This document shows, piece after piece, positions 27,847-48,628 of a DNA stretch of 64,000 nt (positions are counted from its first letter, which is position 1; each line of letters begins with the position of its first letter). Position numbers and translations under genes: made by a program. The notes beneath the pieces were generated by a model. That model searched no databases. It saw nothing but the letters and a program-made list of their open reading frames with translations, and was not told where the DNA came from. The DNA lies in contig JAQWRY010000047.1 in NCBI GenBank assembly GCA_029243485.1, positions 1 to 64,000 of the forward strand, in the 5' to 3' direction. Source of the DNA: Candidatus Binatia bacterium. GTDB taxonomy: Bacteria; Desulfobacterota; Binatia; UBA12015.

Positions 27847-28245
27847 CTAATCGAGGAACTCAGCCGCGCGGTGGCGGAACTGCCACGTCCCGTTCTCGTA
27901 GCGGAGGGTGTCGCGGTAGCGGCCGACGACCTGGATCGCCCAGCCGGACTTCCCCTTGAGGAGGAGAACCACGTCGCTCGACGCCGTGGCCTCGTGGTCG
28001 TCCCAGTCGGTGACGAGGGTGTTTACGACGAGGTGTCGCTGGGGGCGTCGCGGCTTCCACTTGGCGTAGGCTTGGTGGAGGGCTTCATGTCCCTGATGGC
28101 TTCCCAGTCCGGGAATGTCGCAGCTCCCGTCGGCGCGGAACGTGGCCACGACGTCTTCGGTGCGGCCATCGTCCAGGGCCTGGGTGTAGGCGGCGATCGT
28201 CGCCCGGACACCTTCCACGACTTCGGCGTAGGACGCGGTGCTCAT
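27847..28245 (-). CDS. NTF2-like (SnoaL_4-type) protein coupled to a Rieske oxygenase
   Basis: A 132-residue NTF2-like protein: helix 'VVEGVRATIAAYTQALDDGRTEDVVATFRADGSCDIPG', then 'GHEALHQAYAKW', and strands 'RHLVVNTLVTDWDDHEATASSDVVLLL' and 'WQFRHRAAEF'. Its ATG overlaps the Rieske stop (ATGA). NTF2-like folds form the beta subunits of ring-hydroxylating dioxygenases, so it may be a structural partner of the 28242 enzyme; an isomerase or dehydratase role is the alternative. The start at 28245 excludes a long false upstream extension. Confidence 0.85.
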   Translation of the reverse strand: MSTASYAEVVEGVRATIAAYTQALDDGRTEDVVATFRADGSCDIPGLGSHQGHEALHQAYAKWKPRRPQRHLVVNTLVTDWDDHEATASSDVVLLLKGKSGWAIQVVGRYRDTLRYENGTWQFRHRAAEFLD

Positions 28246-29618
28246 TTCGCTCCTTCTTCGAACGCGATCTCCACGATCGGCCGCTCGAGCGGGTTTACGT
28301 TGACCTCGCGGAGTGCCGGAAGCAGGCTTTCGTGAGGAAGCCCTGCGAGGAAGCCGTCGATCATCCGGTGCACGTTCGAGATGTGCCCTTCGGCCTTCTC
28401 CGATAGGCGCATGTACTCGAACCCCTTTGCGTGAAGGCCACGCTGCTGCCGCGGCAAGTTCGAGAAGTCTTCGGTTGGGATCGGCGGGGTTCGTGGGTCG
28501 TCGCACTCCCATGGCTCGGGCGGGGACGGTCGCTCCGGAGCTTGGTCGTCGGGAAAGCGCGTGAGCGACCAGACCTCCATGAGCGTTTCTTCCGGACCCA
28601 ACGGGCGGAACCGGTACGAGGAGGCGCTGCTGTACATCGGCAGTACGAACCAGTGTGGGAAGCAGTAGCCCATCGGCTCGTTGAGGCCGTGAGCCTCGAG
28701 GTCGTTCAGGTCCGGCATGTCGGAGCCTCGGTCTCGGTGCCAGCGCACGACCGCGTCGTTCAGCGTGCGGTGCCAGGTGGGGATTGCCACGGCCGGGTCG
28801 GCGGGCAACTCGAGGCCTTGGAGGCCTTCCGCGATGCGAACGTCGTTCGCGTGGACCATGCCGGCCATGCCTTCGCTCATGACGCGCAGGTAGTGGAGTT
28901 CGGCCTCGACGAAGGCGCGCGGGTCGAACGTTCCCGCTCTCGGGGGGAATCGTCCCGGAATGACGAGGCGGGGGTGGGTCGTGACGACGTGGTACTGCTC
29001 TTGGAACGCTTCCTGCGCGAGCTTCCAGTTCACCGGAAGTCGGAAGGAGGACCACCACTCGGTGCGCATCGACTCGACCTTCCACGCATCCAGAATGGTC
29101 GCCGCCGGCTCGATGCACTGTCGAAGCGGCGGAGCGTCGTCGTCGAGATTGATCCACGCACACCCGCCCCACGGCTCGCAGCGCACGGGCACGAGGTCGA
29201 GATCTCCCGGCCGCAGGTTGTGCTCCGCGAAGGTCCGCGACTGCGTGACGCGCGTGTTCTTACCGTCGGCGCCGTAGCACCACCCGTGGAACGGGCAGGT
29301 GAACCCGTGCTCACAGTTCCCGCGCCCCTCGGCGAATCGAACGCCGCGATGCCGGCAGGCATTCTGGAAGGCCCGGACGCCCATGTCGTCGGTGCGCATG
29401 ACGATGATCGACTGATCGAGGATTTCGTACTCGGCGAAATCGTGGGGCTCCGGGATCTCTTCGAGTCGGCACGCCATCTGCCAAACGCGAGGCCAGAGTC
29501 GCTCGTTCTCCATGGCGTAGAACCCGGGGTCGAAGTAGCGCTCCTTGGGGACCCGGTCCGGGTACTCCATCGGGTGCGGTACCGGGAGCGCCTTCCACTT
29601 CTGATCCCCGATCGTCAT
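28242..29618 (-). CDS. Rieske non-haem iron oxygenase, alpha subunit
   Basis: A 458-residue oxygenase. The Rieske cluster is bound by 'CRHRG' and 'CPFHGW'. The iron site is 'NWKLAQEAFQEQYHVVTTHP' with two His; a later Asp completes the facial triad. Unlike the enzyme at 6693, its NWK Trp is present and the frame is intact. It would add one or two oxygen atoms to a ring or methyl group. It lies between the Baeyer-Villiger monooxygenase and the NTF2-like protein in a four-gene operon. No reductase is nearby; the one at 5665 is the best candidate in the window. Confidence 0.92.
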   Translation of the reverse strand: MTIGDQKWKALPVPHPMEYPDRVPKERYFDPGFYAMENERLWPRVWQMACRLEEIPEPHDFAEYEILDQSIIVMRTDDMGVRAFQNACRHRGVRFAEGRGNCEHGFTCPFHGWCYGADGKNTRVTQSRTFAEHNLRPGDLDLVPVRCEPWGGCAWINLDDDAPPLRQCIEPAATILDAWKVESMRTEWWSSFRLPVNWKLAQEAFQEQYHVVTTHPRLVIPGRFPPRAGTFDPRAFVEAELHYLRVMSEGMAGMVHANDVRIAEGLQGLELPADPAVAIPTWHRTLNDAVVRWHRDRGSDMPDLNDLEAHGLNEPMGYCFPHWFVLPMYSSASSYRFRPLGPEETLMEVWSLTRFPDDQAPERPSPPEPWECDDPRTPPIPTEDFSNLPRQQRGLHAKGFEYMRLSEKAEGHISNVHRMIDGFLAGLPHESLLPALREVNVNPLERPIVEIAFEEGAK

Positions 29619-32406: not shown

Positions 32407-32419
32407 GAAATGGCATACT
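32407..32419. promoter_or_regulatory. Weak operator-like element (GAAATGGCATACT)
   Basis: Read on the minus strand this is AGTATGCCATTTC, matching the TGCC core and flanks of the element at 3475 (AGAATGCCTTTAT). It lies in the 191-bp head between the divergent cyclase (start 32359) and amidohydrolase (start 32551). The palindrome is imperfect, so this is one of the weaker copies. Confidence 0.3.
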
Positions 32420-32437
32420 CCTATATCGTGAGTGAGC

Positions 32438-32467
32438 TTTACATCGATTGGGGCACGGGTCTATACT
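32438..32467 (+). promoter_or_regulatory. Sigma70-type promoter of the amidohydrolase-SDR operon
   Basis: TTTACA (32438-32443) and TATACT (32462-32467) with an 18-bp spacer, the same spacing as the promoters at 24141 and 34742. It predicts a leader of about 75 nt before the ATG at 32551. Confidence 0.55.
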
Positions 32468-32550
32468 TGGATCGAACGCTCCGGAAGCCAAGCCTCCGCA
32501 GCGGTATTCCGAGCCTCATACGCCAATTCAATCAGAAGGGTGGCAACGCG

Positions 32551-33795
32551 ATGATCGGTGAGAACTTCGTCTGCTCCGCAGATGGGCACATTCTCGAGCC
32601 CAACGATCTGTTCTCGACTCGACTCCCCAAGCACCTGCGCGACAAGGCGGTGTGGGAGGAGGACTTCGAGATCGAACCGCTCGCCGAGGGTGGGGTTCGA
32701 GATTTCCGACGCCTTCACACGCCGGGTTTCGAAGGCTGGACGGTGTCGCGCTATCGGCATTACGACGGCTCGGCAAATACCGGTGATCCGGATCGAATCA
32801 TCGAGGATCTGGACCACGACGGCATCGATACGCAGGTGATGCACCCGAACCTATCCCTGTTTGGGCTCTACTCGGACCACCATGAGCTCTCGATGGCCCA
32901 CGCGCGCGTCTACAACGACTACCTCATCGAGAGATTCACGCCGTACTTCGGCCGGATCGCACCGACCGCGCCCATCCCGATGAGTGACGTCGACGATGCG
33001 GTCGCTGAGATCGAGCGCGTTGCCGCCGCGGGGTTCCGCGGCGTTCTGCTGCCGGCCATCGCGCCGAAGCCGTACTTCTCTCCCGAGTACGATCGCGTGT
33101 GGGCCGCGACGCAGGCGGCAGGCATGCACGTCTTCATGCACTGCGCGACCGGCGGGGTGAAGATCGACGACCCGGAATCCACGACGCTCAAGACCGTCAT
33201 GGGCGTCGCGGCCGAGGTGAACGAGCCGATGACGGGCAGAGTGGCCGCGCGGCGGATGCAGACGCAGTGCCTCTACGGGCCGATGGCCCCGCAGAAGATC
33301 ATGATCGATCTGATCGGCGCCGGCGTTCCCGAGCGCTTCCCGGGCCTGCACTTCGCCATGATCGAGTTCGATGCCTACTGGCTCGTGTCGCTGGTGGGGG
33401 CCATGGACAAGGCGTGGACCGCGAGCATCGGGCAGGATCTCGACTGGTGGCTCGGCTACTGGGATTCGAAGCGTGCCGACGACGACCAGCCCCACATGGC
33501 GCGTATCCTCCGCGTTGGCGAGAAGTGGCCTTGGCCGCTCCGTCCGAGCGAGTATGTGCGGCGCCAGTTCCACGTCTCCTTCCAGGACGATCCGGTCGCC
33601 GTCGCCGCTCGTCACATCACGGGGCTGTCGACCGTGATTTGGGGCGCGGACTATCCGCATGCGGAAGGCACGTTCCGGGGGAGCAAAGCGCTGGTGAGAA
33701 GCATGTTCGCTGAGGTCCCCCAGAACGAGCAGGCCGCGATGCTGGGGGGCACTCTCGCAGGCCTGATGGGCTTCGCGGGCCCGTCGGCCGCGTGA
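32551..33795 (+). CDS. Metal-dependent amidohydrolase (Amidohydro_2 type)
   Basis: A 414-residue TIM-barrel hydrolase. The N-terminal 'VCSADGHILEPNDLF' and the C-terminal 'VIWGADYPHAEGTFRGS' are the metal-ligand regions of PF04909 proteins; 'HPNLSLFG', 'YNDYLIERF' and 'FMHCATGGVK' lie between. The start at 32551 (after AGAAGGGTGG) excludes 47 upstream codons that cross the promoter. It is related to the amidohydrolase at 15253 but not close to it. It is followed 28 bp later by an SDR. Confidence 0.88.
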   Translation: MIGENFVCSADGHILEPNDLFSTRLPKHLRDKAVWEEDFEIEPLAEGGVRDFRRLHTPGFEGWTVSRYRHYDGSANTGDPDRIIEDLDHDGIDTQVMHPNLSLFGLYSDHHELSMAHARVYNDYLIERFTPYFGRIAPTAPIPMSDVDDAVAEIERVAAAGFRGVLLPAIAPKPYFSPEYDRVWAATQAAGMHVFMHCATGGVKIDDPESTTLKTVMGVAAEVNEPMTGRVAARRMQTQCLYGPMAPQKIMIDLIGAGVPERFPGLHFAMIEFDAYWLVSLVGAMDKAWTASIGQDLDWWLGYWDSKRADDDQPHMARILRVGEKWPWPLRPSEYVRRQFHVSFQDDPVAVAARHITGLSTVIWGADYPHAEGTFRGSKALVRSMFAEVPQNEQAAMLGGTLAGLMGFAGPSAA

Positions 33796-33823: not shown

Positions 33824-34726
33824 ATGAAGGAACTCGGGTTCGAAGGTCGCGTTGCCGTCGTCAGCGGGGCGGGGCGCGGGATCGGCCGAGCGTACGCGAA
33901 ACTGCTCGGGGCGCGCAGCGCTCGCGTCGTCGTGAATGATCTTGGTGGATCGATCCGTGGGGAGGGGACGGCTTCGGAACCGGCCTCGTCCGTCGCCGCC
34001 GAGATCATCGCGAGTGGCGGGGAGGCGATCGCGGACCACAGCGACGTTTCCACGCAGGTAGGTGCCGAAGCGCTCGTCGATGCGGCCGTCGGACAGTTCG
34101 GTCGCATCGACATCGTTCTCAACAACGCGGGGATCGTACGGTGGGCCGGATTCCCGGAAGCGGATGCCGACAACCTCGAGCGGCATCTCGCGGTCCACGT
34201 CGGCGGTTCGTTCCACACGGCGCGCGCCGCCTGGCCGCATATGGCCGAACAAAGTTACGGCCGCATCATCATGACGACGTCGTCCGGATTGTTCGGGCTT
34301 CCGAACAATCTCTCCTACGCAACGGCCAAAGCGGGGGTCGTCGGACTCACGCGGAGTCTCGCGACTGCGGGCGGCGCGCACGGCATCAAGATCAACGCCA
34401 TCGCTCCGGCGGCGATGACTCGCATGGCCGGCCGCGCGAAGGACGAGGCTGAGGATGCCGGCGAGATGTCGCCCGACCTCGTTGCCCCGATGGCGGCGTT
34501 CCTCGCCCACGAGACATGCCCGGTGAACGGCGAGATCTACGCCGCGGGGGCAGGGCGCTTCGCGCGGATCTTCATCGCACAAGCGGCGGGTTACGTTGCC
34601 GAGAGTTCCGGGCCGACGATCGAAGACGTGGCGCAGAACTGGGCGGCGATCAACGACGCCGCGGCCTCCGCGATCCCCGCCAGTCTCCAGGATTGGTCGA
34701 CGTTCTTCCTGGCGCACCTCCGCTGA
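33824..34726 (+). CDS. SDR with C-terminal extension (MFE-2 hydroxyacyl-CoA dehydrogenase-like)
   Basis: A 300-residue SDR, longer than classical ones. It has 'SGAGRGIGRA', 'VVVNDLGGSIRGEG' (the D-L-G-G motif of peroxisomal multifunctional enzyme 2 dehydrogenases), 'NNAGI', and the catalytic 'TSSGLFGLPNNLSYATAK' with Tyr and Lys. The D-L-G-G motif and length suggest (3R)-hydroxyacyl-CoA as substrate, a beta-oxidation step. It closes the operon begun at 32551. The next operon's promoter starts 16 bp after its stop. Confidence 0.9.
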   Translation: MKELGFEGRVAVVSGAGRGIGRAYAKLLGARSARVVVNDLGGSIRGEGTASEPASSVAAEIIASGGEAIADHSDVSTQVGAEALVDAAVGQFGRIDIVLNNAGIVRWAGFPEADADNLERHLAVHVGGSFHTARAAWPHMAEQSYGRIIMTTSSGLFGLPNNLSYATAKAGVVGLTRSLATAGGAHGIKINAIAPAAMTRMAGRAKDEAEDAGEMSPDLVAPMAAFLAHETCPVNGEIYAAGAGRFARIFIAQAAGYVAESSGPTIEDVAQNWAAINDAAASAIPASLQDWSTFFLAHLR

Positions 34727-34791: not shown

Positions 34792-37254
34792 ATGCGGACT
34801 CGAATTGCCCTGGCGCCGACGCGCAGCTGGATCTGGTGGTTCGTCATGGTGACGATCCTCTTCGTCGCCTCTGCGAGTAGCGCTTCGGCCGAGCCCACGG
34901 GTGGTCCCGAAGCACCCGCCGAGTACCAGCGCGGGGTGGACGGGCAGGACGGCCCGAGCGGGACGACCGACGAGATCGACGCAGCCGAGGCTCAGGCGCA
35001 GCAAGCAGCGGAGGGCCGCGCCAGCGGGCTCAGCCGCCGGACGGCCGCGCACGTCGAGGAGATCGTCGTGAGCGCGCGGAAGCGCCAGGAAGCGCTCGAG
35101 GACACGCCGGTTGCGGTCACGGCGCTCGGTGCGGAAGCTCTTCGCGAATCCAGTGTGCAACGGATCGACCAAGTGGGGGAACTCGTTCCCAACTTGAATG
35201 TGTCGACGGAGCGCCAGGGGAACATTGCACTGTTCAGCATCCGCGGTGTCGGCACGGGGAGCGCCGACATCCAGTTCGATCCGGGTGTGGCGCTCTATCT
35301 CGACGGCGTGTTCTTTCCGCGCGCGCCGGGTTCGCTGCTGAACATCGTCGACGTGCAGCAGATGGAAGTACTTCGCGGGCCGCAGGGCACCCTCTTCGGC
35401 AAGAATAGCGTCGGCGGTGCGATCAACATCACGACCGTAAAGCCGCAGCCCGAAATGCAGGGCTTTGCCATGCTCCGCCCCGGAAACTGGAACGGGTTCG
35501 ATTCCCAGATCATGCTCAATGTCCCGATCGTCGAGGACGTGCTCCTGAGCCGCGTCGCGTTCTTCACTTCGCGTCGCGATGGCTACGTCTACAACACCTT
35601 CCGGGACGAGTATGCGAGCGACGCGAACGAGCTGGCCTTCCTAGGCAGCTTGCGTCTCCTTGCCACCGACGAGCTGACGTTCGATGTCTCGGGAACGTGG
35701 AGTCGATCGAGCACCAAGGGGCTCGGCGGGCAGTGCATCGTAGTGCGCGAGGACGGCCCCGTCGCACCGTTGACGCCGCAACTGTTTCCCGCGTGTCGCG
35801 AGACGACCTTGTTCACCTGGTCGTCGGACTCCGCTGGCATCTCCGACATCGAGAGCGCTGGGACATGGGGGGTGATGAACTACGATATTGGCGACGCCTG
35901 GGTCTTGGAGGACCTGGCGGTCAAGGCGCTGGGCTCGTGGCAACACCAGACGACGCGCCTGCGCTTCGATGTCGACGGAACGTACCCGCACCAAGCGGTG
36001 CTCTCGACGGCGGGCGGCTCGTTCCTCGATGGCGCTCCGGGGCCGGCGGAGCAGACGCAGGGCGAGTTGCAGATCAACGGAGGGGCGCTCGACGGCCGCC
36101 TCGTCTTCGTCACCGGGTTCTTCGCGCAGTGGGAGAATGCGGAAGACAACCGAACCACGTCGGTGGGCTCTCCGCTCGAGACCGCGTCGACGACGGCCAA
36201 CGGCAACATCAAGAACTGGACATGGGCTCCCTACCTGCAGGCCACGGGCGAACTGACCGAGTGGCTGAGCCTCACGGCTGGAGTCCGCTACACCGAGGAC
36301 CACAAGGAGCTCACGCTCACCCAGACGCAGCCCTTCACTGGCGACATTCTTTTCCCCACCACGACGGGGGCGAAGCTCTTCACGAAGTGGACGCCGATGG
36401 CGAGCCTCGCCTCGACGCTGCCGGTCGATCTCTTGCCCGCTTGGGCCGATCACTTCATGGGCTACTTCACGTACTCTGAGGGCTTCAAAGGCGGCGGCTT
36501 CAACGCGCTTCCGGGTGCGCAGGGGAGTGCGGAAGACGCGTCGCTCGCCGCGCCGTTCGGTCCGGAGACGCTGGACAGTTACGAGGTCGGCTTCAAGACG
36601 ATTCTGTTCGAGAGCCGGCTCAGCTTCAACGCGGCGTTCTTCTACGCGATCTATGACGACATCCAGAAGATCTCGATCCAGACCGAGGGCACGGGTGATC
36701 AGATCGCCGTGCAGCGCATCACCGAGAACGCAGCGAAGGCGACGACGAAGGGCTTCGAACTCGAGATGATGGCACTCCCGATCGACGGGCTGCGGATCAC
36801 GGGCAATATCGGCGTCACCGACGCGACCTACGACGAGTTCGCGAACGCGATCAGCGACTTCGACAACGAATTGATCGACCGCTCAGGCGAGGGCTTCAAC
36901 AACGTGCCCGAGTTCACGAGCTTCCTTGCCATACAGTACTCCCTTCCCATCGAGGGCGACGCGCAGATCCTGCAAGGATGGCTGACTCCGCGCCTCGAGT
37001 GGTACTACCAGAGCGAGGTCCACCTGAACGGCCCGGAGATCGGGGCGTCGGTGCAGCACGGCTACAATCGCTTGAACGCCCGGCTCTCGTACGACTTCTG
37101 GGATGATCGTGCGCAGGTCGCCCTCTGGGGCAAGAACCTGGCCGATGAGGAGTACATCGTCTTCTCGACACCAACCGTCTCGACGTTCGGAACCGTGGTG
37201 AACTATACCGGGCTCCCGCGCACATGGGGCGCCGAGATTGCGTACCGGTTTTGA
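34792..37254 (+). CDS. TonB-dependent outer-membrane receptor
   Basis: An 820-residue receptor. After a basic N-terminus the signal peptide is 'WIWWFVMVTILFVASASSASA'. An unusual 60-residue acidic, Gln/Ala/Gly-rich linker follows before the TonB-box-like 'VEEIVVSARKR', the plug ('TPVAVTALGAEALRESSVQRIDQVGELVPNL', 'LRGPQGTLFGKNSVGGAINI') and the barrel ending in 'IAYRF'. It is paralogous to the receptor at 10366. It heads an operon with a P450, a haem/copper lipoprotein, a hydrolase and a fused acyl-CoA dehydrogenase, so it probably imports that operon's substrate. Two bases separate its stop from the P450 start. Confidence 0.93.
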   Translation: MRTRIALAPTRSWIWWFVMVTILFVASASSASAEPTGGPEAPAEYQRGVDGQDGPSGTTDEIDAAEAQAQQAAEGRASGLSRRTAAHVEEIVVSARKRQEALEDTPVAVTALGAEALRESSVQRIDQVGELVPNLNVSTERQGNIALFSIRGVGTGSADIQFDPGVALYLDGVFFPRAPGSLLNIVDVQQMEVLRGPQGTLFGKNSVGGAINITTVKPQPEMQGFAMLRPGNWNGFDSQIMLNVPIVEDVLLSRVAFFTSRRDGYVYNTFRDEYASDANELAFLGSLRLLATDELTFDVSGTWSRSSTKGLGGQCIVVREDGPVAPLTPQLFPACRETTLFTWSSDSAGISDIESAGTWGVMNYDIGDAWVLEDLAVKALGSWQHQTTRLRFDVDGTYPHQAVLSTAGGSFLDGAPGPAEQTQGELQINGGALDGRLVFVTGFFAQWENAEDNRTTSVGSPLETASTTANGNIKNWTWAPYLQATGELTEWLSLTAGVRYTEDHKELTLTQTQPFTGDILFPTTTGAKLFTKWTPMASLASTLPVDLLPAWADHFMGYFTYSEGFKGGGFNALPGAQGSAEDASLAAPFGPETLDSYEVGFKTILFESRLSFNAAFFYAIYDDIQKISIQTEGTGDQIAVQRITENAAKATTKGFELEMMALPIDGLRITGNIGVTDATYDEFANAISDFDNELIDRSGEGFNNVPEFTSFLAIQYSLPIEGDAQILQGWLTPRLEWYYQSEVHLNGPEIGASVQHGYNRLNARLSYDFWDDRAQVALWGKNLADEEYIVFSTPTVSTFGTVVNYTGLPRTWGAEIAYRF

Positions 37255-37256
37255 CG

Positions 37257-38453
37257 ATGGCAAGCCCGGGCGACGTCTACTTCGACCCGTACGACGTCGA
37301 GATCAACGCCGATCCCTATCCGACGTTCCAGCGTCTGCGTGAGGAGGCGCCTCTCTACCACAACGACAAGCACGGCTTCTTCGCGCTGAGCCGGTTCGAG
37401 GACGTTCAGTCGGCGTTGGCGGATCACGAGACCTACATCTCGGGGCGGGGCGCGATCGTCGAGTTCATTCAAGCGAACGTTCCCGTGCCGCCGGGCGTCA
37501 TCATCTTCGAGGATCCGCCCATCCACACGGTCCACCGCGGGTTGCTGTCGCGGGTGTTCACTCCGAGAAAGATGAACGCTCTCGAGGGAAAGGTCCGCGA
37601 GTTCTGCGCGCGGAGTCTCGACCCGCTGGTCGGAACCGGGGGCTTCGACTTCATCGCAGATCTGGGCGCTCAGATGCCGATGCGGGTCATCGGCATGCTG
37701 CTCGGGATTCCGGAGTCCGATCAGGAGGCGGTGCGCGATCGCGCGGACAGCAGCCTCCGCACCAAGCCGGGCGAGCCCATGAAGTACGAAGACAAAGGAC
37801 TCCCTACGGGCGAGGAGTTTGGCGAGTACATCGACTGGCGCGCCGATCACCCCTCGGACGACTTGATGACCGAGCTTCTGACCGCCGAGTTCGAGGACGA
37901 GACGGGCACGACCCGTCGGCTTCGTCGAGAGGAAATCCTCACCTACGTGAACGTCGTTGCGGGTGCGGGGAACGAGACGACGACGCGCCTGATTGGGTGG
38001 GCGGGGAAGGTGTTGGCCGATCATCCCGACCAACGCAGGGAGCTCGTCCGGGATCCTTCTCTCATTCCGAACGCCATCGAAGAGCTGCTCCGCTACGAGC
38101 CCCCCGCGCCGCACGTGGCGCGGTGCCTCAGTCGAGACGTCGAGCACCATGGCCAGGCGGTGCCGGCGGGCAGCATCGTGGTGCTTCTGGTGGGTGCCGC
38201 GAATCGCGACGAGCGACGCTTTCCGGACGGGGACCGGTTCGACATTCACCGCGAAGTCGGACAACACCTGGCGCTTGGCTACGGCATCCACTTCTGCCTC
38301 GGCGCGGCGCTCGCTCGGGTCGAGGGGCGCGTGGCGCTCGAAGAAGTCCTGAAGCGCTTTCCCGAATGGGAAGTCGATCGGGAGCACGCCAAGCTGTCTC
38401 CCACCTCGACGGTGCGGGGATGGCAAACCCTGCCCGTGTTTACGCAGGCCTGA
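37257..38453 (+). CDS. Cytochrome P450
   Basis: A 398-residue soluble P450 with I-helix 'VVAGAGNETTTRL', K-helix E-x-x-R in 'IEELLRYEPPA', and haem loop 'LGYGIHFCLGAALARVE' with Cys347. It is distantly similar in layout to bacterial CYPs that hydroxylate terpenes and steroids. The ATG is two bases after the TonB-receptor stop. No ferredoxin or reductase is next to it. The next gene is a lipoprotein with its own haem c and copper sites, which would work outside the cytoplasm, so the two do not form a simple redox chain. Confidence 0.94.
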   Translation: MASPGDVYFDPYDVEINADPYPTFQRLREEAPLYHNDKHGFFALSRFEDVQSALADHETYISGRGAIVEFIQANVPVPPGVIIFEDPPIHTVHRGLLSRVFTPRKMNALEGKVREFCARSLDPLVGTGGFDFIADLGAQMPMRVIGMLLGIPESDQEAVRDRADSSLRTKPGEPMKYEDKGLPTGEEFGEYIDWRADHPSDDLMTELLTAEFEDETGTTRRLRREEILTYVNVVAGAGNETTTRLIGWAGKVLADHPDQRRELVRDPSLIPNAIEELLRYEPPAPHVARCLSRDVEHHGQAVPAGSIVVLLVGAANRDERRFPDGDRFDIHREVGQHLALGYGIHFCLGAALARVEGRVALEEVLKRFPEWEVDREHAKLSPTSTVRGWQTLPVFTQA

Positions 38454-38466
38454 AGGAGAACAGACG

Positions 38467-40203
38467 ATGATCGATTCGATGAAGCAGAGGGCCGTCCTCA
38501 TCCTGCCCCTGGTACTTGCCTGCGGCCTCGCTCTCGGGTGTGGGTCGGAGTCGACGCCTGGGACGACCACGTCGCCACCTTCAGAAACGCCGCCGGACCC
38601 GGTTCCAGAGCCGGAGCCAGAGCCGGACGACTGCGACGCGTCCTTCGACGGCGCCTACGACGCGATCCAGAGCCTCGTCTTCGAACGCCGCGGGTGTACG
38701 ACCGACGTTTGTCACGGGAGCAGCGCCTCGGGCGGGCTCGATCTGCGTGCCGACGTGTCCTACGACAGCCTGGTGCGCGCCGATTCCGTCGGAAGTGAGT
38801 TTCGTCGCGTCGAGCCGACGAAGGTGAACGAGAGCTATCTCTTCCACAAGCTCGCGGCCGCGACTGATCCGTCGTTCCTGACGGTCGGAATCGCCGGGAG
38901 CGCGATGCCGCTCTCGGGTACGGCCCTGACTCCCGACGAGCTCGAGGCGATCCGTCTGTGGATCGAAGGGGCTGCACCCCGTGAAGGCTCGCTCGGTGAC
39001 GAGTTCGGTGGCAATCGGATCGCCGACCTGCTGGGCGCCTGCCTGCCGGACCCCGATCCGGTGCAGATTCAGCCGCTGGAGGTGCCCGCGCGCGACGAGG
39101 GCGTGCAGTTGGCGATGCCGCCGCACGCGATTTCGGCGGCGAGCGAGTTCGAGATCTGCTTCGCGGAGTACCTCGATCTACGGGACCAGATCCCCGAGCG
39201 CTTCCTGACGCCGGACGGCAACGCCTTCTACGCGAACGGCCAGAAGCTGCTGGCCGATCCGAATACCCATCACCTGACGCTCAGCTACTCGGGCTTCGGA
39301 GCAGAAGCGGTGGACGCTCCCGAGTTCGGACGATGGGAGTGCGCGGATGGGCCGCGTCTGGGCGAGGAGTGCGATCCGCTCGACCGAGAGTCGTGCGCGG
39401 GCGCGCAGTGCCGGTCCGCGATCAGCAACAGCGTCGCGTGCATCGGATTCGGTCCACCCGGTGGGGCAAACGGCGCGTCGCCGGCGGGCCGGGTGAGCAC
39501 CTCGAATGGGCTAGGCGGCTTCTTTGCCGAATTCCCGTCTCATGGGATCTTCTATTGGAACTCCCACGCCTTCAATCTCACGCCAACGGACCTGCTGCAC
39601 CACCACTACACCAACGTTTACTTCACGGACGACCTACGGTTCCATGACGTCGTCTGGCAGAACACGTCCGGCCTCACCATCGCAGCCGGCACGCCGCCCT
39701 TCACGAAGGCCGAGTACTGTAGGGAGCACGTTCTCCCCAAGGGCACTCTCCTTCTCAGCCTGACGTCGCACACCCACAAGCGCGGCGAGCGGTTCACGAT
39801 CGACCTGAAGAGCACGGGAGAGCGCCTGTACGACAACCCGTTCTGGGACGATCCCGTTTGGGACTACTACGATCCGCCTCTCGAGTTCGATGCGGACGAT
39901 CCGGATGAGCGGACGCTCGTGTACTGCGCCGTGTACAACAACGGTGTTGCGTCAGATGGGTCACCCGATCCGGCTTCCGTGACACGGAAGTCGTTCAAGC
40001 CCGATCGCTCAGACTGTCGTCCCGTTGCCTGCGCGGAGGGGATGATTGGCGAGCCGTGCACCGGGCCCAATGATCATGCGACGTGCGACACGTCGCCCGG
40101 TGCGGGAGATGGTCTGTGTGACGCGTGTCCGATCACGTCGGGGCTGACGAGCGACGACGAGATGTTCATCATCATCGGGTCGACACTGGAGGTCGTGGAG
40201 TAG
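38467..40203 (+). CDS. Lipoprotein with haem c domain and type II copper monooxygenase-like domain
   Basis: A 578-residue exported protein. Lipobox 'LALGC' puts the lipid on Cys25, followed by a Pro/Glu-rich linker. Residues 60-170 look like a c-type cytochrome with an unusual C-x4-C-H motif (Cys77, Cys82, His83), a possible distal Met147 in 'SAMPL' and the closing 'EAIRLWIEGAA'. The rest has the copper ligands of peptidylglycine/dopamine-type monooxygenases: His268-His269, a later His (367 or 378-380), 'SHTHKRG' (His435, His437) and a Met in 'DDEMF' (566). Many Cys may form disulfides. It could hydroxylate a substrate in the periplasm using electrons passed through the haem (inference). Strong AAGGAG precedes the ATG. 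Confidence 0.82.
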   Translation: MIDSMKQRAVLILPLVLACGLALGCGSESTPGTTTSPPSETPPDPVPEPEPEPDDCDASFDGAYDAIQSLVFERRGCTTDVCHGSSASGGLDLRADVSYDSLVRADSVGSEFRRVEPTKVNESYLFHKLAAATDPSFLTVGIAGSAMPLSGTALTPDELEAIRLWIEGAAPREGSLGDEFGGNRIADLLGACLPDPDPVQIQPLEVPARDEGVQLAMPPHAISAASEFEICFAEYLDLRDQIPERFLTPDGNAFYANGQKLLADPNTHHLTLSYSGFGAEAVDAPEFGRWECADGPRLGEECDPLDRESCAGAQCRSAISNSVACIGFGPPGGANGASPAGRVSTSNGLGGFFAEFPSHGIFYWNSHAFNLTPTDLLHHHYTNVYFTDDLRFHDVVWQNTSGLTIAAGTPPFTKAEYCREHVLPKGTLLLSLTSHTHKRGERFTIDLKSTGERLYDNPFWDDPVWDYYDPPLEFDADDPDERTLVYCAVYNNGVASDGSPDPASVTRKSFKPDRSDCRPVACAEGMIGEPCTGPNDHATCDTSPGAGDGLCDACPITSGLTSDDEMFIIIGSTLEVVE

Positions 40204-40209
40204 CGCCCC

Positions 40210-41373
40210 GTGCTCCGTGTCCTCGGTCTTCTGACCGGCGCTCTTGCTCTCGGGCTTGCGGTGGCCTTCCTGGTCATGGGTCCCGAGCCTCCGCCCGATG
40301 GGAGCGAGAGCGCAGAGCGCCTGGCTCCCGGCCCGTTCCGGGTTGGGAGCAGCGACCACGTGTTCGTCGACGAGGCGCGGCCGACTGCGGCGAACGGCGA
40401 CTTCGCCGGCGCGCCGAACCGCACGCTCGAGGCGACGCTCTGGTACCCGGAGGACGCCACCGGGCCGCACGCCCTCCTGGTTTACAGCCACGGCTTCATG
40501 TCGTGGCGGACGGAGCACGCGGCGCTTGCCGAGCTCGCCGCGAGCCATGGATACGTCGTGGTCTCCGTCGACTTTCCGCTCACGAATCTCAGCGCTCCGG
40601 GTGGGCCGAATGCGACGGACGTCGTGAACCAGCCCGGAGATCTGTCGTTCGTGATCGACGAGATGCTCGGATGGGGCCCGGGCGAGCGCCCCTTCGAGGG
40701 GGGCATCGATCCGGAGCGGATCGGCACGCTCGGTGTGTCGCTCGGTGGTCTCACGACGATCCTCGTCACGTATCACCCGCGGCTTCGTGATCCTCGGATC
40801 CGGGCGTCCCTTTCGATCGCCGGTCTCGCTTCGTTCTTCGACGAGCGGTTCTTCGCCCATGCGGATCCCCCGTTCCTGATGCTCGCTGGGACGGCGGACG
40901 CTCTCGTGCCCTACGAGACCAACGCCGAACCGATCCCGCGCTTGGTTTCCAATGCTGCATTGCTCTCGGTCGGAAACGGAACGCACACCGGATTCGTGGC
41001 CGCGTCCGATCGCTTCCCCAACCGATTGATCCCTCAGCCCGATGCGATGGGTTGTTTCATGCTTCGCCGGAACCTCGACCCGGAGGCCGAGCCACCGGAG
41101 GGCTACTTCGCGAGCCTCGGCGACCCCGAGGACGGAGTGATATCTGGTTCGCGACCGCCCCCGTGCGCAAGCGGGTTGCCGGACGCCCCGCTCGCGCCCG
41201 GCCGCCAGCTCATGATCACCCGTCTCGCTGCTCTCGCATTCTTTGGAAGTCACTTCGCGTCGGATGCCGAAGAGCGCGCGGCCCACGGCCGGTACCTTCG
41301 CGACGGCCTGGCGAACGACTTTCCCGAAACGAGATACGAGGGTCAGGAGCGGGACCGGTCGGCCGCGCGGTAG
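40210..41373 (+). CDS. Exported or membrane-anchored alpha/beta hydrolase
   Basis: A 387-residue hydrolase with an uncleaved or cleaved hydrophobic N-terminus 'LRVLGLLTGALALGLAVAFLVMG'. The core shows 'LLVYSHGFMSWR' (oxyanion region), nucleophile elbow 'GVSLGG', Asp in 'LAGTADALVP' and His in 'GNGTHTGF', a pattern of platelet-activating-factor acetylhydrolase and dienelactone-type esterases. The start is GTG 40210, six bases after the copper lipoprotein's stop. With two exported enzymes in a row, part of this operon's chemistry probably happens outside the inner membrane. Confidence 0.85.
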   Translation: MLRVLGLLTGALALGLAVAFLVMGPEPPPDGSESAERLAPGPFRVGSSDHVFVDEARPTAANGDFAGAPNRTLEATLWYPEDATGPHALLVYSHGFMSWRTEHAALAELAASHGYVVVSVDFPLTNLSAPGGPNATDVVNQPGDLSFVIDEMLGWGPGERPFEGGIDPERIGTLGVSLGGLTTILVTYHPRLRDPRIRASLSIAGLASFFDERFFAHADPPFLMLAGTADALVPYETNAEPIPRLVSNAALLSVGNGTHTGFVAASDRFPNRLIPQPDAMGCFMLRRNLDPEAEPPEGYFASLGDPEDGVISGSRPPPCASGLPDAPLAPGRQLMITRLAALAFFGSHFASDAEERAAHGRYLRDGLANDFPETRYEGQERDRSAAR

Positions 41374-41409: not shown

Positions 41410-43620
41410 ATGAATCTCGCATTTACCCAGGAGCAGGATCTGCTCCGCGATACCCTTGCCGATCTCTTCGCGGCCGAGTCGAGTTCGGAGCGCATCCGCC
41501 GCGCAGAGGAGGCCGGCTTCGATCCCGAGCTCTGGCGACGTCTGGCGGAGACCGGCGCGTTCGGGATTCGTGTGCCGGAGGCCAAGGGCGGGAGCGCGTT
41601 GGGGGTCCTCGAGGCGACGATTCTTCTCTACGAGGCCGGGCGCCGGCTCGCGACCGGTCCGGTCGCGGAGAGCGTGGTGGCGTGTCGGCTTCTCTCCGAG
41701 TTCGGCCCCCCGCAGCTTCTCGCCGCGGCGTTGTCGGGCGAGGCGGTCGTGTCGCTCGCGCTCCGTCCGTTGGCGGACGGGGACGACCTCGTTCTGGCGG
41801 GAGGCACGCACGCCACGGCGGCCGTCGCGCGTCGCGGAAGTGAGATTGTTCTCGTCCGCCGCCCGCCGGCCGCGACCCAGGCTCGTAACCTGGGCGCCCC
41901 CGGACTCGGGCGTTGGCCCGGAGGGGAGGGCCGAGAGGTCGAGGTGCTGGCGACAGGCGAACGGGCGACGGTTGCATTCGCCGCGGCGCTCGAAGAATGG
42001 AAGCTGCTCACTGCGTCCTACGTGACGGGCATGGGGCGCGAGGCACTGCAGATCGCCGCGGCGTACGCGACCGAACGCATCCAGTTCGATCGGCCGATCG
42101 GCACGTTCCAGGCGGTCGCTCACCCGCTCGCGGACGCCGTCGCGGACGTGGAGGCGGCTCGTCTCCTCGTGCACGAGGCACTGTGGGCGATCGACCGCGG
42201 GCGGCCAGAGGCGGCGGCGTTGGTTTCGATGGCCTTCGCCTGGGCCTGCACTTCAGCGACGGGCGCGGCGCGACGTGGTGTGCAGACGCACGGAGGATAC
42301 GGACTCTCCCTCGAGTACGATCCCCAACTCTACTACCGGCGGGTGAAGGCGGTCCCGTTGTTGGCGGGCGACCCCAACGACGAGTTGCTCCGGGCGGCCG
42401 ACCGGTTGTGGAACGGCGAGCGCGTCTCGCTGCCCGACGTGGGCGAGGTGCCCTTCGACTTCGAGCTCGGGGAGCAGGCCGAGATCTTTCGAGCGGAGGT
42501 GCGGCGGTTCTTCGACGAGAACTTGACGGACGAGTTGCGCGCGCACGCGCACTTTTCGTGGGGCGGCCATGACGCCGCGTTCAATCGAAAGCTCGCGGCG
42601 GCCGGTCTCGCGTTCCCGTCCTGGCCTCGAGAGTACGGCGGCCAGGAGCGTGGAGTCTACGAGCAGATGGCGCTCGAGGAGGAGTTTTTCCGCGCGGGTT
42701 GGACGCGGCACGCCTTGGGTACGACTCGGATGGTGGGCGCGACGCTCATGCAGTACGCGACCGACGAGCTGAAACAGGAAGTGCTGCCGCGCATCGTCTC
42801 AGGCGATGCGGTGACGTCCCTGGGATACACGGAGCCCGCATCCGGCTCGGACGTCGCTGCGGCGCAGACCCGCGCCGTGCGCGAGGGCGACGATTGGGTG
42901 ATCAACGGACAGAAGATGTTCACGAGCGGAGCCGACGTCGCCCAGTACGTGTTCCTCCTCACGCGCACGGACCCGGAGGCAAAGAAGCACCGGGGTCTGA
43001 CGATGTTCTTGGTGCCGCTGGACGCTCCGGGCATCGAGATTCAGGCCGTCCATACCGTGGGCGACGAGCGGACGAACATCACCTATTACGCGGACGTGCG
43101 TGTCCCCGACCGCTATCGTATCGGTGACGTGAACGGTGGCTGGGGCGTGCTCAGTTACGCGCTCGAACTCGAGCATGGGGGTAGTTACCCCGACCACCAC
43201 GTCGACCTCATCGACGGGGCCGCGCGATGGGCCCGCGCGGCACGCCGGGGCGGACGGCCGGCGATCGAAGACGCTCGTGTGAAGGAGCGGCTCGCGCGCG
43301 CGGCCACGCACTTCGAGGCGGCGCGCGTTCTGGCGCGCCAGTCGATGTTCGTCGCGGCCGAAGGTCTCCCCGCTCGTGGGCAGGGCCCGATGTCGAAGTT
43401 GTTCCAGACGGAGATTCTCGTCGAGGACGCGCAGGATCTTCTCGACCTCGCAGCGCCGGAGTCGTTGTTCGCCCGGGGAGACCCGGGCGCGGTGTCGGAA
43501 GGCGAATTCGAGTCGTGCTACCGATTCTGTCCCGCGGCCACGATCTACGCGGGAACGAGCGAGATCATGCGAAGCATCATCGCGCAGGTGGCGCTCGGGA
43601 TGCCCCGCAGTCGCAGTTGA
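41410..43620 (+). CDS. Fused double acyl-CoA dehydrogenase (FadE34-like)
   Basis: A 736-residue protein made of two acyl-CoA dehydrogenase units. Residues 1-350 are a degenerate unit with 'GREALQIAAAYATERIQFDRPIGTFQAVAH' and 'TGAARRGVQTHGGYG'. Residues 355-736 have the full FAD site ('SLGYTEPASGSDVAA', 'VINGQKMFTSGAD') and 'ATIYAGTSEIMRSIIAQ'. The YEGT Glu is Ala, as in sterol side-chain enzymes that use another base. The layout and length are those of FadE34 (Rv3573c) of mycobacteria, a fused heteromer acting on steroid side-chain CoA esters. It mirrors in one chain what 3478 and 4662 encode as two. It is last in its operon. Confidence 0.9.
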   Translation: MNLAFTQEQDLLRDTLADLFAAESSSERIRRAEEAGFDPELWRRLAETGAFGIRVPEAKGGSALGVLEATILLYEAGRRLATGPVAESVVACRLLSEFGPPQLLAAALSGEAVVSLALRPLADGDDLVLAGGTHATAAVARRGSEIVLVRRPPAATQARNLGAPGLGRWPGGEGREVEVLATGERATVAFAAALEEWKLLTASYVTGMGREALQIAAAYATERIQFDRPIGTFQAVAHPLADAVADVEAARLLVHEALWAIDRGRPEAAALVSMAFAWACTSATGAARRGVQTHGGYGLSLEYDPQLYYRRVKAVPLLAGDPNDELLRAADRLWNGERVSLPDVGEVPFDFELGEQAEIFRAEVRRFFDENLTDELRAHAHFSWGGHDAAFNRKLAAAGLAFPSWPREYGGQERGVYEQMALEEEFFRAGWTRHALGTTRMVGATLMQYATDELKQEVLPRIVSGDAVTSLGYTEPASGSDVAAAQTRAVREGDDWVINGQKMFTSGADVAQYVFLLTRTDPEAKKHRGLTMFLVPLDAPGIEIQAVHTVGDERTNITYYADVRVPDRYRIGDVNGGWGVLSYALELEHGGSYPDHHVDLIDGAARWARAARRGGRPAIEDARVKERLARAATHFEAARVLARQSMFVAAEGLPARGQGPMSKLFQTEILVEDAQDLLDLAAPESLFARGDPGAVSEGEFESCYRFCPAATIYAGTSEIMRSIIAQVALGMPRSRS

Positions 43621-43642: not shown

Positions 43643-45973
43643 TCAGTCGCGCGACGACCGGATTGCGGAGAGGACGCGCGGCGGTGACATGGGCAGCTCG
43701 GCGAGCCGGACGCCCACGGCTCGGTGGATCGCGTTCGCGATCGCGCCGGGCGGTGGCACGATCGGCACCTCTCCGACGCCGCGCACTCCCAACGGATGGG
43801 CGGGGTTCGGGATCTCGAGGATTACGGCGTCGATCATCGGGAGGTCGTTCGCGATCGGCATGCGGTAGTCGAGGAAGCCGTCGTTCTGGAGCTTGCCGTC
43901 CTCGTCGCAGACGTACTCTTCGTTCAAGGCCCAGCCGATGCCCTGAACCGTACCGCCTTGCAACTGGCCTTCGACGTACGCGGGGTGGATCGCCTTGCCG
44001 GCATCCTGCAGTACGGTTGCGCGGACGACATCGACGCGGCCGGTCTCGACGTCCACCTCGACGTCCGCGATCAGCCCCGCGACCGAACCTCCGACGACCT
44101 TGCTCGCGTTGATCGAGGCCCGACCGACGATCGGTCCGCCCGTGCGGCCGGCCTTCGCGGTGATCTCGCCGAAGGTCTTTCGGGCTCCCTCGGGCCCGAC
44201 GACCGCGTCTCCCTCGAGCCCGACCTCGTCCACCGGGACGCGCCACGAACGTGCGGCATGCTCGCACAGCTGGCGCTTGACGTCCTGGGCGGCCTCGTAC
44301 ACGGCGAGGCCAGTCGCCAGAGTGACGCGGCTGCCGCCGGTTCCGTCGGTGAACCCGATCGAGTCGGTGTCGGCGACGTGCGGCCGTACCTGCTCGATCG
44401 CCAGCCCGAGCTCTTCGGCCGCGACCATCGCGCACGCCGTGCGTGTGCCGCCGATGTCAGGGGAGCCCGTGACGACGTTGGCCGTGCCATCGGGGTTCAG
44501 GTTGATCGTTGCGCTCGACTGCATGCCGCCGTTGAACCAGAAGCCGCAGGCGAACCCGCGACCGCGCCGCTTCGCGCTGGTTGCGCCGGTCTCGGGTTCG
44601 CCCAGAGGGTCGGTCCAATGCGGGTGGGCCTTGGCCGCTTCCAGCAATTCGACGAGGCCGAGTCGCTTGAACTTCGGGCCGGCGGGTTGCGGAGAGCCTT
44701 CGCGGGAGGCGTTGCGAAGCCGAAAATCGATTGGATCCATCCCGATCTCGCCTGCGAGCTCGTCGACGACCGACTCGACGGCGAACGCCGCATTCGTGGC
44801 GCCGGGAGCGCGGTAGGCCGAGACCTTCGGGCGATTGACGACCACGTCGCGCCCCTCGATGCGGAGCGCTTCCATGTCGTACGGCGAGAGGCAGGCCATC
44901 GCGCCCGGTCCTACGGGCGAACCGGAGAACGCGCCGGCCTCGTAAGCGAACCAACAGTCGGCCGCGGTGATGCGCCCCTCACGCGTCGCCCCCATCTTGA
45001 TGCGGATGTGCGATCCCGACGTCGGTCCGGACGCCTGCAGCACCTCGGCTCGGCTCATCACCATCTTGACCGGACGAGCGGACTTCTTCGCCAGGAGGAT
45101 CGCGATGGGCTCCAGGTAGACCGTCGTCTTTCCGCCGAAGCCCCCGCCGATCTCGGTTGGGAACACGCGAATCTTCGACAGCGGCATGTCCAGGATCCGG
45201 GCCGACAGGCCCCGGACGTCGAACGGTCCCTGAGTCGAGCACCAGACGGTGACTTGTTCGTCGGCGTCGACCTTGGCGACCGCGTTGGGTGGCTCGATGT
45301 AGCCCTAGTGCACCGCGGACGTGCGGAACTCTCGCTCGACGATCACGTCGGCGGCCTCGAACCCCGCAGCGACGTCTCCCCGCCCGAACTCGAAGATGGT
45401 CGCGACGTTGCTCGGTTCATCCTCTGCCTTGGGGGCGTCCGGGCGCATGTCGCGCGTACGCATGTCGGGATGGAGGATCGGCGCGCCGGGTGCGGTCGCG
45501 GCGGCGAGATCGATCGCTGGGGGCAGGGTCTCGTACTCGACGTCGATCAAGCCGACGGCTTGCTCCGCCACGTGTGGGCTGGTCGCCGCCACGGCGGCGA
45601 TCGCGTGCCCGTAGAACAGCGCTTTGGTCTTGGCGAGGACACTGTCGCTCAAATCTTTGAAGCTGAGCGGCATCTCGCCGACCTGCTCGAAGCCGGGAGC
45701 GATCTCCGGCATGTCGGCGCCCGTGATGACCGCCTTCACGCCTGGCAAGGCCTCTGCACGAGACGTGTCGATGCTTCGAATGTGCGCGTGGGCGTGCGGG
45801 CTCCGAAGCACCTTGCCGTGGAGCATTCCGGGGAGCTGGATGTCCGCCCCGTATCGCGCTCGGCCTGTCACCTTGTCGATGCCGTCGTGACGCACCGGGG
45901 TCGTGCCAATGATCCGGAAGCTTCGTTCTTCGGTCAGGCCATCCGGCCTGGCGGGCGGCTCGGTTCGCTCCAT
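43643..45973 (-). pseudogene. Molybdenum hydroxylase large subunit (xanthine dehydrogenase family), interrupted by in-frame TAG
   Basis: A 777-codon frame from ATG 45973 to TGA 43643-43645 broken only by TAG at 45305-45307 (codon 223). Before the stop: 'GKVTGRARYGADIQLPGMLHGKVLRSPHAHA'. After it: 'GYIEPPNAVAKVDAD', 'GGGFGGKTTVYLEPIA' and the active-site Glu loop 'GVRGVGEVPIVPPPGA'. Relatives read H-Q-G-Y-I-E-P, so TAG replaces CAG by one C to T change. All other motifs look healthy. Genes for the usual FAD and 2Fe-2S subunits are not in the window. It follows the SDR at 45989 by 15 bp. Read-through or a base-calling error are alternatives to a true pseudogene. Confidence 0.87.
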
Positions 45974-46855: not shown

Positions 46856-47596
46856 TCAGTCCGTCTTGGTGGAGGGTCGTCGGCTGCGCGGAACGGTCTT
46901 CTTTGCGTTCTCGGTATCGAACCCCATGCCGGCTGCGCAGTACTGCCAGATCGTTTGGGCTGGGAGGTCCGCTGCGCCGGCCGCGCCGAACAAGCGGCTG
47001 TGGACAGCCGTACGCACGAGGTAGTGCGTCAATCGTGCCGCGGCTGGGGGTGTGAGGCCGCGCCGTAAAGGCTGGACGGCAGCTGCGTCTCGGACCAACT
47101 CCGTCAGTAGGTCGAACTGAGGCTTCATCGCTAGTTCGAGGTCGTCGGGTCGGCTCTCGGCGAGCCTGTTCTGGTAGCTTGCAAGGGTTCTCGCGACGGG
47201 TTTCGTCGTTCCGGTCGAGAGCCCGACGAGGCCCTCGATGAAGGCGCGGAGCCGCCGCAGCGGGGCCTTGTGTTTCGCGACGAGTTCTTCGAGCCGCGGC
47301 ACGGCTTCCCGCGCGACCACAGTCTCGGAGACCGCCAAGAGCAGGTCTTCTTTGCTGGCGAAGTACTTGTAGAAGGTTCGGATCGACATCCCGGAGCGCT
47401 CGACCACGTCTTGGACTGTGAAGTCGGTCGTTCCCTGTTCTCGCATCAGGTCTGTCGCGGCAGCGACGAACCGGTCGCTTCGCTCGTGCGCGCGGGCGCG
47501 CGCGGCCCGCAGCGAGCGATCCACGCTCTGCTGTTGCCACGCAGGGACCGACTCGTCGTCGAGATCCGTTGCCTTCGTCGCGCGTTTCGCTGTCAT
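46856..47596 (-). CDS. TetR/AcrR-family transcriptional regulator
   Basis: A 246-residue TetR protein. An N-terminal arm 'AWQQQSVDRSLRAARARAHER' precedes the HTH 'DLMREQGTTDFTVQDVVERSGMSIRTFYKYFASKEDLLLAV'. Arm and HTH closely follow those of the TetR at 9203, so the two are paralogues and may bind related DNA. The ATG at 47596 (after GAGGGAC) is preferred to the upstream 47635. It is divergent from the TauD-like gene, with the operator-like site 47657-47669 between them, the usual arrangement for autoregulation and control of the neighbour. Confidence 0.9.
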   Translation of the reverse strand: MTAKRATKATDLDDESVPAWQQQSVDRSLRAARARAHERSDRFVAAATDLMREQGTTDFTVQDVVERSGMSIRTFYKYFASKEDLLLAVSETVVAREAVPRLEELVAKHKAPLRRLRAFIEGLVGLSTGTTKPVARTLASYQNRLAESRPDDLELAMKPQFDLLTELVRDAAAVQPLRRGLTPPAAARLTHYLVRTAVHSRLFGAAGAADLPAQTIWQYCAAGMGFDTENAKKTVPRSRRPSTKTD

Positions 47597-47656
47597 CGTC
47601 GTCCCTCGCCCGCTGCGTCTCTTCCGGTCGGCCACCCCGGGGTTCGACCCGGAATG

Positions 47657-47669
47657 AGAACGCCATTGT
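47657..47669. promoter_or_regulatory. Operator-like element AGAACGCCATTGT
   Basis: AGAA-N5-TTGT in the head shared by the TetR (-) and TauD-like (+) genes. It overlaps TACAAT on the minus strand (47670-47665), a good -10 box for the TetR gene, so binding would block it. Confidence 0.4.
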
Positions 47670-47743
47670 ACCTAGAGAGCAGTGGTGATACTACGTTCCT
47701 TTACCGGAAAAGGCCATCCTTCGCAGGCGTAGGAGACCAGCCG

Positions 47744-48628
47744 ATGAGTGAGTCCTTTGTTCCTTTGACGGCCCGCATTGGCGCCAAGGCAATCGTGTCG
47801 CGAGAGCGGGTGCTCGACCCCTCCTTTGCCAACGAGTGCCTCGGTGCACTCGAGCGCTACGGGGTTCTTGTTTTCCCACAGATTGGGTTCGATGACGAGG
47901 AGCAGGTCACCTTCACCCGAAACCTCGGCGATGTGATCCCCCAAGGGCGTCCGCGTCCCGATGGCACGCAGGAGGTGGTGTTCAAGATCACTCTCGACCC
48001 GCGGGAGAACCCTTCGGCGGAATACCTGAAGGCTACCGTAGATTGGCACATAGACGGTCTCTTCGAGGATGGTCCGCCGCCGCGGGCGACGATGCTCTCG
48101 GGACGTCGCCTCTCGGCGACCGGTGGTCAGACCGAGTTCTGCAACACCTACGCCGCCTACGAGGACCTGCCCGCGGAGCAACGTGGTCAGTATGAATCGT
48201 TGCGGGTCGTGCATAGCCTCGAGGCGTCCAACCGCGTGACGAACCCGAATCCGACCCCGGAGCAGGAGGCGAGTTGGCGCAAAGCGGAGGAGTTCCGAGC
48301 GAGCGCCGGTCGGATCGGAGAGAAGGAGCATCCGCTCGTCTGGCGACACCGAAGCGGGCGCAGCTCCCTCGTGCTTGGCATGACGGTCGACCACGTTTCC
48401 GATCTGAAGGGGGCGGAGGGCGGAGCCCTCGTGGAGAAGCTGACCAGCCACGCGACCCGGAGCGAGAACGTCTACCGGCACGAGTGGGACGTTGGTGATC
48501 TCCTCATTTGGGACAACTGTGGCGTCATGCATCGCGCCGTCCCGTATCCAGCCGACTCCGGGAGGATGATGCATCGGACCGTTCTGGTCGGAACCGAGAC
48601 CATCGCCGGGGTCGACGCGGGCGGTTGA
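47744..48628 (+). CDS. TauD/TfdA-family Fe(II)/2-oxoglutarate dioxygenase
   Basis: A 294-residue oxygenase. The iron triad is His102 and Asp104 in 'WHIDGLF' and His263 in 'CGVMHRAVPY'; an Arg in 'SGRMMHRTVL' (278) would hold 2-oxoglutarate. Such enzymes hydroxylate, cleave ethers or remove sulfate from alkyl esters. The start at 47744 removes a false upstream part antisense to TetR. It heads the five-gene operon ending at 53102 and lies opposite the TetR gene, so it is the likeliest direct target of that regulator. Confidence 0.92.
   Translation: MSESFVPLTARIGAKAIVSRERVLDPSFANECLGALERYGVLVFPQIGFDDEEQVTFTRNLGDVIPQGRPRPDGTQEVVFKITLDPRENPSAEYLKATVDWHIDGLFEDGPPPRATMLSGRRLSATGGQTEFCNTYAAYEDLPAEQRGQYESLRVVHSLEASNRVTNPNPTPEQEASWRKAEEFRASAGRIGEKEHPLVWRHRSGRSSLVLGMTVDHVSDLKGAEGGALVEKLTSHATRSENVYRHEWDVGDLLIWDNCGVMHRAVPYPADSGRMMHRTVLVGTETIAGVDAGG

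Follow-up and report, generated by a model that had tools for sequence, protein, structure and literature searches.

The window, a stretch of 64,000 nucleotides from a Candidatus Binatia bacterium, carries on its forward strand the gene P0001, whose reading frame (38467-40203) runs through 578 amino acids with no internal stops. It is preceded by the ribosome site AAGGAG, located 8 bases 5' of the ATG and graded good, and 13 bases separate the ATG from the stop codon of a cytochrome P450 gene. P0001 is part of a tight same-strand run comprising genes for an amidohydrolase, a short-chain dehydrogenase, a TonB receptor, the P450, P0001 itself, an alpha/beta hydrolase and a double acyl-CoA dehydrogenase. 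The operon with a TonB receptor and a P450 that the earlier note had described is indeed there, both genes lying directly 5' of P0001 and pointing in the same direction. The features of the operon and of P0001 are as follows.

32410-33795 (+): Amidohydro_2 protein, from domain search
33824-34726 (+): short-chain dehydrogenase, from domain search
34792-37254 (+): TonB-dependent receptor, from domain search; start approximate, set by eye at an ATG ahead of a signal-like stretch (the mechanical ORF begins at 34516)
37224-38453 (+): cytochrome P450, from ORF list and domain search
38467-40203 (+): P0001, predicted haem-c / PHM-like copper monooxygenase lipoprotein, 578 aa, from ORF list, translation and relatives
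38467-38541 (+): predicted signal peptide to lipidation Cys25 (ALGC, Gly at +2), by eye
38632-38991 (+): haem-c-like domain, residues 56-175, from AF2 model and structural matches
38695-38715 (+): predicted CX4CH haem attachment motif C77-TTDV-C82-H83
38905-38907 (+): M147, predicted distal haem ligand (97/97)
39067-40200 (+): PHM-like two-domain copper core, residues 201-578, from AlphaFold2 model, Foldseek and VIA-align
39268-39273 (+): H268-H269, predicted CuH ligands (98/98), aligned to the HH of Pfam-recognised relatives that themselves align to PHM
39565-39567 (+): H367, predicted third CuH ligand (98/98), aligned to the QTH of the relatives
39769-39777 (+): H435-x-H437, predicted CuM ligands (98/98), aligned to the HxH of the relatives
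39994-40134 (+): Cys-rich insertion in the CuM domain, limits approximate, from a 58-residue gap in the global profile alignment with the Pfam-recognised relatives
40162-40164 (+): M566, predicted CuM Met ligand (97/97), paired with the L054 Met by global hhalign alone
40210-41373 (+): alpha/beta hydrolase (PETase-like model), from ORF list and domain search
41410-43620 (+): double acyl-CoA dehydrogenase, from ORF list and domain search

Near this operon are genes for a Rieske oxygenase (28242-29618, -), a TauD-type dioxygenase (47270-48628, +), a second P450 (51876-53102, +) and a molybdenum hydroxylase of the xanthine dehydrogenase type, found in two adjoining ORFs (43643-45187 and 45305-45973, both -) that are possibly a split or broken large subunit. 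The wider surroundings also hold more dehydrogenases. Because Rieske, TauD-type, molybdenum hydroxylase, dehydrogenase and P450 genes are all present, we regard the region as oxygenase-rich and catabolic.

P0001 was described in the earlier note as a lipoprotein, and its N-terminus looks like a lipoprotein-type signal. The lipobox predicted by eye, ALGC at residue 25, is an imperfect one, and 86 of 98 distinct relatives share its Cys. A home-made rule recognizes a lipobox-like site in 66 of 97 family rows; several of the remaining rows appear by eye to have ordinary signal peptides, and some others have long N-terminal extensions.

Searches of P0001 against Pfam and NCBIfam gave no matches, including at the cut-offs of the copper monooxygenase models PF01082 and PF03712, which we take as a limit of detection and not as a biochemical trait. 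Three paralogues and one piece show sub-threshold PF03712 matches in their copper region, and among the 25 members of our family alignment (A1) three do so. That alignment comprises 25 of the 26 extracted sequences, without the fragment L023; the pieces L015, L017-L020 and L032-L034 were not extracted. Neither P0001 nor the family profile found anything useful among PDB sequences; a glucoamylase match of P0001 (E 0.14) was rejected, as it looks like low complexity. Among the titles listed in a targeted literature search, none names the family or a haem-PHM fusion, which does not prove that no such paper exists. Membrane copper monooxygenases are treated in parts of the Binatota paper (PMC8262859), and the P0001 family was not seen in those parts.

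With a 25-sequence family alignment as input, AlphaFold2 produced a model of P0001 with pLDDT 82.1 and pTM 0.73, and its best 30 Foldseek matches in the PDB are PHM or DBH throughout (E 1.2e-8 to 3.9e-6). VIA-align superimposes the model on PHM (6ala) with Z 15.6 over 254 residues at 3.4 A and 12% identity, and on DBH (4zel) with Z 15.5 and 268 residues aligned; several of its rows pair model residues 201-578 with PHM 45-326. The last PHM row has Z 12.0 and the best row that is neither PHM nor DBH has 8.3, and because of this drop the lower matches, to viral scaffold and capsid proteins and to PNGase F, were set aside. The comparison with PHM proposed in the earlier note thus came out in favor of the two-copper fold: the model matches PHM and DBH at the level of the fold, and the ligands align with those of PHM-like relatives. 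Over residues 201-578, P0001 shares with PHM (6ala, 1sdw and others) the same two-domain fold and the same order of HH, H, HxH and M. Unlike PHM, it has a Cys-rich insertion, lacks the residues that hold the peptide carboxylate, carries an added haem domain and is a predicted bacterial lipoprotein. DBH has the same copper core and, like P0001, an extra N-terminal domain; this is a DOMON beta-sandwich, whose class serves elsewhere to bind haem or sugar (PMC4846438), and not a cytochrome c domain as predicted for P0001.

Most rows of the family alignment are only 33-51% identical to P0001, and residue invariance is therefore a sharper test than the fold alone. We counted it over 101 family sequences, reduced to 98 distinct ones by removing three identical rows; these copies were taken mostly from the strongest, full-length matches, so that weak or decaying copies are under-sampled. 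Cells are missing for L023, which is cut at the 5' end, and L148, cut at the 3' end. H268, H269, H367, H435 and H437 are invariant in all 98, and M566 in the 97 sequences that reach its position. The residues listed in the earlier note (H268-H269, H435-x-H437 and M566) are thus in place, in the PHM order and invariant, and the third histidine that it had left unnamed is H367. P0001 has 15 His residues, of which six predicted ligands are the only ones kept in at least 97 sequences, the other nine being kept in 1-40 of 98. Of its six Met residues, M147 and M566 alone are invariant, the next best being kept in 76 of 98. Judged from the alignment, the invariance of these predicted ligands is far above chance. 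The protein also contains 20 Cys residues, of which 18 are conserved in 92 or more of the 98 sequences.

A further line of evidence comes from proteins of the same class that Pfam does recognize as Cu2_monoox. A profile of 13 of them (alignment A2, from 13 of 21 loci) finds PHM in the PDB with an E value of about 5e-14, and hhalign pairs it with the P0001 family at 99.9% (E 3.4e-37) across both the haem and the copper parts. The HH, H and HxH ligands are aligned, H and HxH again in a later alignment. To pair M566 with the L054 Met, hhalign has to be forced into global mode, across the 58-residue Cys-rich insertion; the local alignment ends short of it, and with -mact 0 the alignment extends further and still leaves M566 unpaired. 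In the structural alignment the last pair is 578/326, from which M566 would project to PHM 314 if no gap intervenes. Taken together, the modelled fold and the predicted ligands make P0001 a well-supported member of the PHM/DBH superfamily.

Among the Pfam-recognised proteins, those with Cu2_monoox_C (PF03712) in L035, L036, L043, L045, L046, L048 and L050 show the same order as P0001, a CX4CH domain followed by the copper core. They differ from P0001 in passing the Pfam cut-off, in mostly having His for the CuM Met and in lacking the Cys-rich insertion. An in-frame CXnCH was found in 7 of the 21 loci, each time as CX4CH, and some of the others are cut loci; the source genome itself encodes two Pfam-recognised Cu2_monoox proteins, both with the CX4CH domain. 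Since the pairing of haem and PHM-like parts also occurs in these relatives, the P0001 family is no category of its own; it is a distinct, expanded, haem-fused variant of the PHM/DBH superfamily. With respect to the CuM Met, it is replaced by His (EHC for EMC) in 16 of the 21 loci (L035, L041-L043, L045-L052 and L055-L058) and kept in four (L036, L044 and L054/L059, the last two being the same gene); L053 has neither motif.

The haem-c-like domain with CX4CH and Met147 that the earlier note had suggested is confirmed in its residues (C77-x4-C82-H83 and M147), with moderate evidence for the domain as such. C77, C82, H83 and M147 are each invariant in the 97 family sequences that reach there, and CX4CH occurs in 96 of these 97, the single exception being the paralogue L013 with CX2CH. 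Modelled alone from 85 rows, residues 56-175 give pLDDT 90.9 and pTM 0.84; the alignment used (A3) holds 85 of 96 rows, ten having been left out for long inserts or extensions and one as a close duplicate. Foldseek returned no matches for this model at E <= 0.001, the best being hydrazine synthase, itself a carrier of c-type haems, at E 0.038. Of its 13 rows, 11 belong to c-type cytochromes or to haem enzymes that include domains of this sort. VIA-align scores FoxE at Z 8.1 (95 residues) and hydrazine synthase at Z 8.0 (100 residues), both at 25% identity; it re-scored only the few chains from Foldseek, and according to the tool's own note a Z of about 8 may mean merely a common arrangement.

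Support from Pfam for the haem domain, as far as profile matches tell, is borderline. The haem region of P0001 alone matches no model up to E 1, and family members give sub-threshold cytochrome matches. Paralogue L013 lies at the PSCyt1 (PF07635) cut-off of 22 bits, scoring 22.9 with in-frame neighbouring matches and 20.1 alone, and the haem part of the relative L035 matches the dihaem cytochrome model TIGR03806 with E 6e-5, far below its cut-off. With PSCyt1 and related monohaem c domains the family shares CXnCH, Met-Pro and a conserved Trp-Ile helix near the end; in contrast to PSCyt1, its motif is almost always CX4CH and not CX2CH, and P0001 itself has no PSCyt1 match. The source genome has three matches to the cytochrome c assembly model PF01578 above the cut-off, so covalent haem is possible. 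The CX4CH domain of P0001 is likely to bind haem. Two other arrangements were seen at the N-terminus. The divergent paralogues L014 and L016 have a DUF4215-like stretch (sub-threshold) ahead of the haem domain, and in five of seven gammaproteobacterial copies (L025-L029) a second, N-terminal haem domain with CXXCH precedes the CX4CH domain.

The earlier note had called for a family search for the same domain pair, and this revealed that the pair is typical of a large family and not of P0001 alone. The source genome encodes 15 near-full-length copies including P0001, the other 14 being 36-75% identical to it. There are pieces of further copies besides (C62:59565-60305, C28:222419-223359 and C73:30413-31222), some with stops or split matches, which look like decaying paralogues. 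All 14 searched genomes of the same taxonomic family have matches at E <= 1e-20, with 5-29 in each including pieces. Of 145 genomes sampled from the class, 43 have matches at E <= 1e-30, and of 198 sampled from the phylum 4 have matches, all four from the source class; copy numbers per genome in these two samples are lower bounds, as at most nine and six candidates, respectively, were scored. The named relatives are from MAGs labelled 'Deltaproteobacteria', from a Candidatus Binatia MAG and from Gammaproteobacteria, Halieaceae and Spongiibacteraceae among them. The marine isolate HTCC2148 has a copy (L030), and a genome of the same taxonomic family as the source encodes a protein identical to one in a named Candidatus Binatia record, in keeping with a class that is probably Binatia.

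In a tree of 96 rows, built by a quick method with a midpoint root and containing 18 open forks and one very long row (L013), P0001 clusters with L021, L022, L002 and L003. All seven gammaproteobacterial copies fall into a single clade (support 100) that is nested among the copies of the source class, which suggests transfer to Gammaproteobacteria. In a subgroup belonging to other families of the class (L140-L147 and L149-L153), 224-241 residues separate HxH from Met, compared with 128 in P0001, and several members of this subgroup have, by eye, ordinary signal peptides and no lipobox.

No conserved operon was found across the copies with genes called by a crude rule, and the partners vary even among the closest copies. 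Neighbour counts were taken at 14 loci in this genome, treating the tandem pair on C65 as one, omitting the pieces on C28, C62 and C73 and assuming uniform density. A TonB neighbour is mildly enriched, with 5 of 14 loci where 1.4 are expected (P 0.009). A P450 neighbour occurs at 3 of 14 where 1.3 are expected (P 0.14), which is not significant, and it is no general feature of the family. The test used 39 TonB plug matches and 37 of 38 P450 matches, the remaining one being the second half of a gene that was already in the count. Other genes next to copies encode acyl-CoA and short-chain dehydrogenases, and both of the neighbour proteins that were tested are TetR-type regulators. Such multiplied copies near TonB, acyl-CoA, dehydrogenase and sometimes P450 genes would fit different hydroxylases for different catabolic clusters.

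As for the substrate, Arg240, Asn316 and Tyr318 of PHM hold the peptide carboxylate. Their places in P0001, aligned by offset from the ligands, are taken by T433, I568 and I570, and across the family Arg is found in 0 of 98 sequences, Asn in 2 of 97 and Tyr in 0 of 97. With these residues replaced, P0001 is unlikely to be an amidating enzyme, and thus PHM proper, and its pocket is likely hydrophobic; for the same reason the substrate would be a hydrophobic small molecule and not a peptide. From the pocket residues, the export signal and the neighbours of the copies, we read P0001 as a periplasmic hydroxylase of imported hydrophobic compounds. More fully, it would be a copper monooxygenase that is lipid-anchored, faces the periplasm, contains a haem c of its own and acts on hydrophobic substrates, a reading to which we give a probability of about 0.58. 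Copper would be bound at both sites, CuH (H268, H269, H367) and CuM (H435, H437, M566), and O2 would be activated at CuM as in PHM. Two electrons per turnover would pass singly from the haem to CuH and on to CuM, the haem, for which the donor may be periplasmic or quinol-linked, being the obvious electron entry to the copper core. Cellobiose dehydrogenase (CDH) and lytic polysaccharide monooxygenases (LPMOs) are separate proteins. They offer a working analogy only, in that CDH is a haem-bearing partner that reduces LPMOs (PMC5987398); unlike P0001, they have unrelated folds and polysaccharide substrates.

The route of the electrons is where the strongest competing explanation lies. The fold and metals could be the same and the reductant of the copper a small molecule, for instance ascorbate, or another protein, leaving the haem for docking, sensing or some other role. 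Ascorbate is the electron source of DBH, with two molecules used per turnover (PMC4846438), and 6 of the 13 A2 relatives have the copper core with no in-frame CXnCH motif, so that some members of the wider superfamily do without the haem. In the P0001 family, however, invariance extends equally to the haem and the copper ligands, which suggests that haem and copper work together, and we regard this explanation as unlikely. It is quite improbable that P0001 is no hydroxylase at all and instead a lipoprotein that binds or transfers copper, or an oxidase without oxygen insertion. The family has no known activity and has lost the peptide-site residues of PHM, but both copper sites, the CuM Met included, are fixed wherever the sequence reaches, and genes of oxidative catabolism are found close to P0001 and several other copies. 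That the CX4CH segment holds no haem and its Cys pair forms a disulfide in a Cys-rich protein is very improbable: the atypical spacing, the many conserved Cys residues and the weak database and fold matches of the domain would allow it, but the plain CX2CH of L013 at the PSCyt1 cut-off, the invariant H83 and M147, the predominance of c-type haem proteins among the Foldseek rows and the CX4CH haems of cytochrome c3 (PMC10454114) all argue against it.

A monooxygenase reduced through its own haem thus remains our preferred reading of P0001, and it assigns a likely function to proteins that are nameless in Pfam and NCBIfam. The familiar settings of PHM-type enzymes are ascorbate chemistry and the chemistry of animal hormones and transmitters. 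Tentatively, and with somewhat less than even odds, bacteria of this class and, through transfer, some Gammaproteobacteria may have self-contained haem-copper hydroxylases in which a fused c-type haem replaces ascorbate; the 5-29 copies per genome in one taxonomic family would then be a periplasmic counterpart of a P450 repertoire, each with a different hydrophobic substrate. A large bacterial family with both copper sites and a haem, which escapes the domain databases, would open to testing the idea that a protein-borne haem can drive the two-copper mechanism. It would also open the question of O2-dependent chemistry outside the inner membrane in mostly uncultured bacteria.
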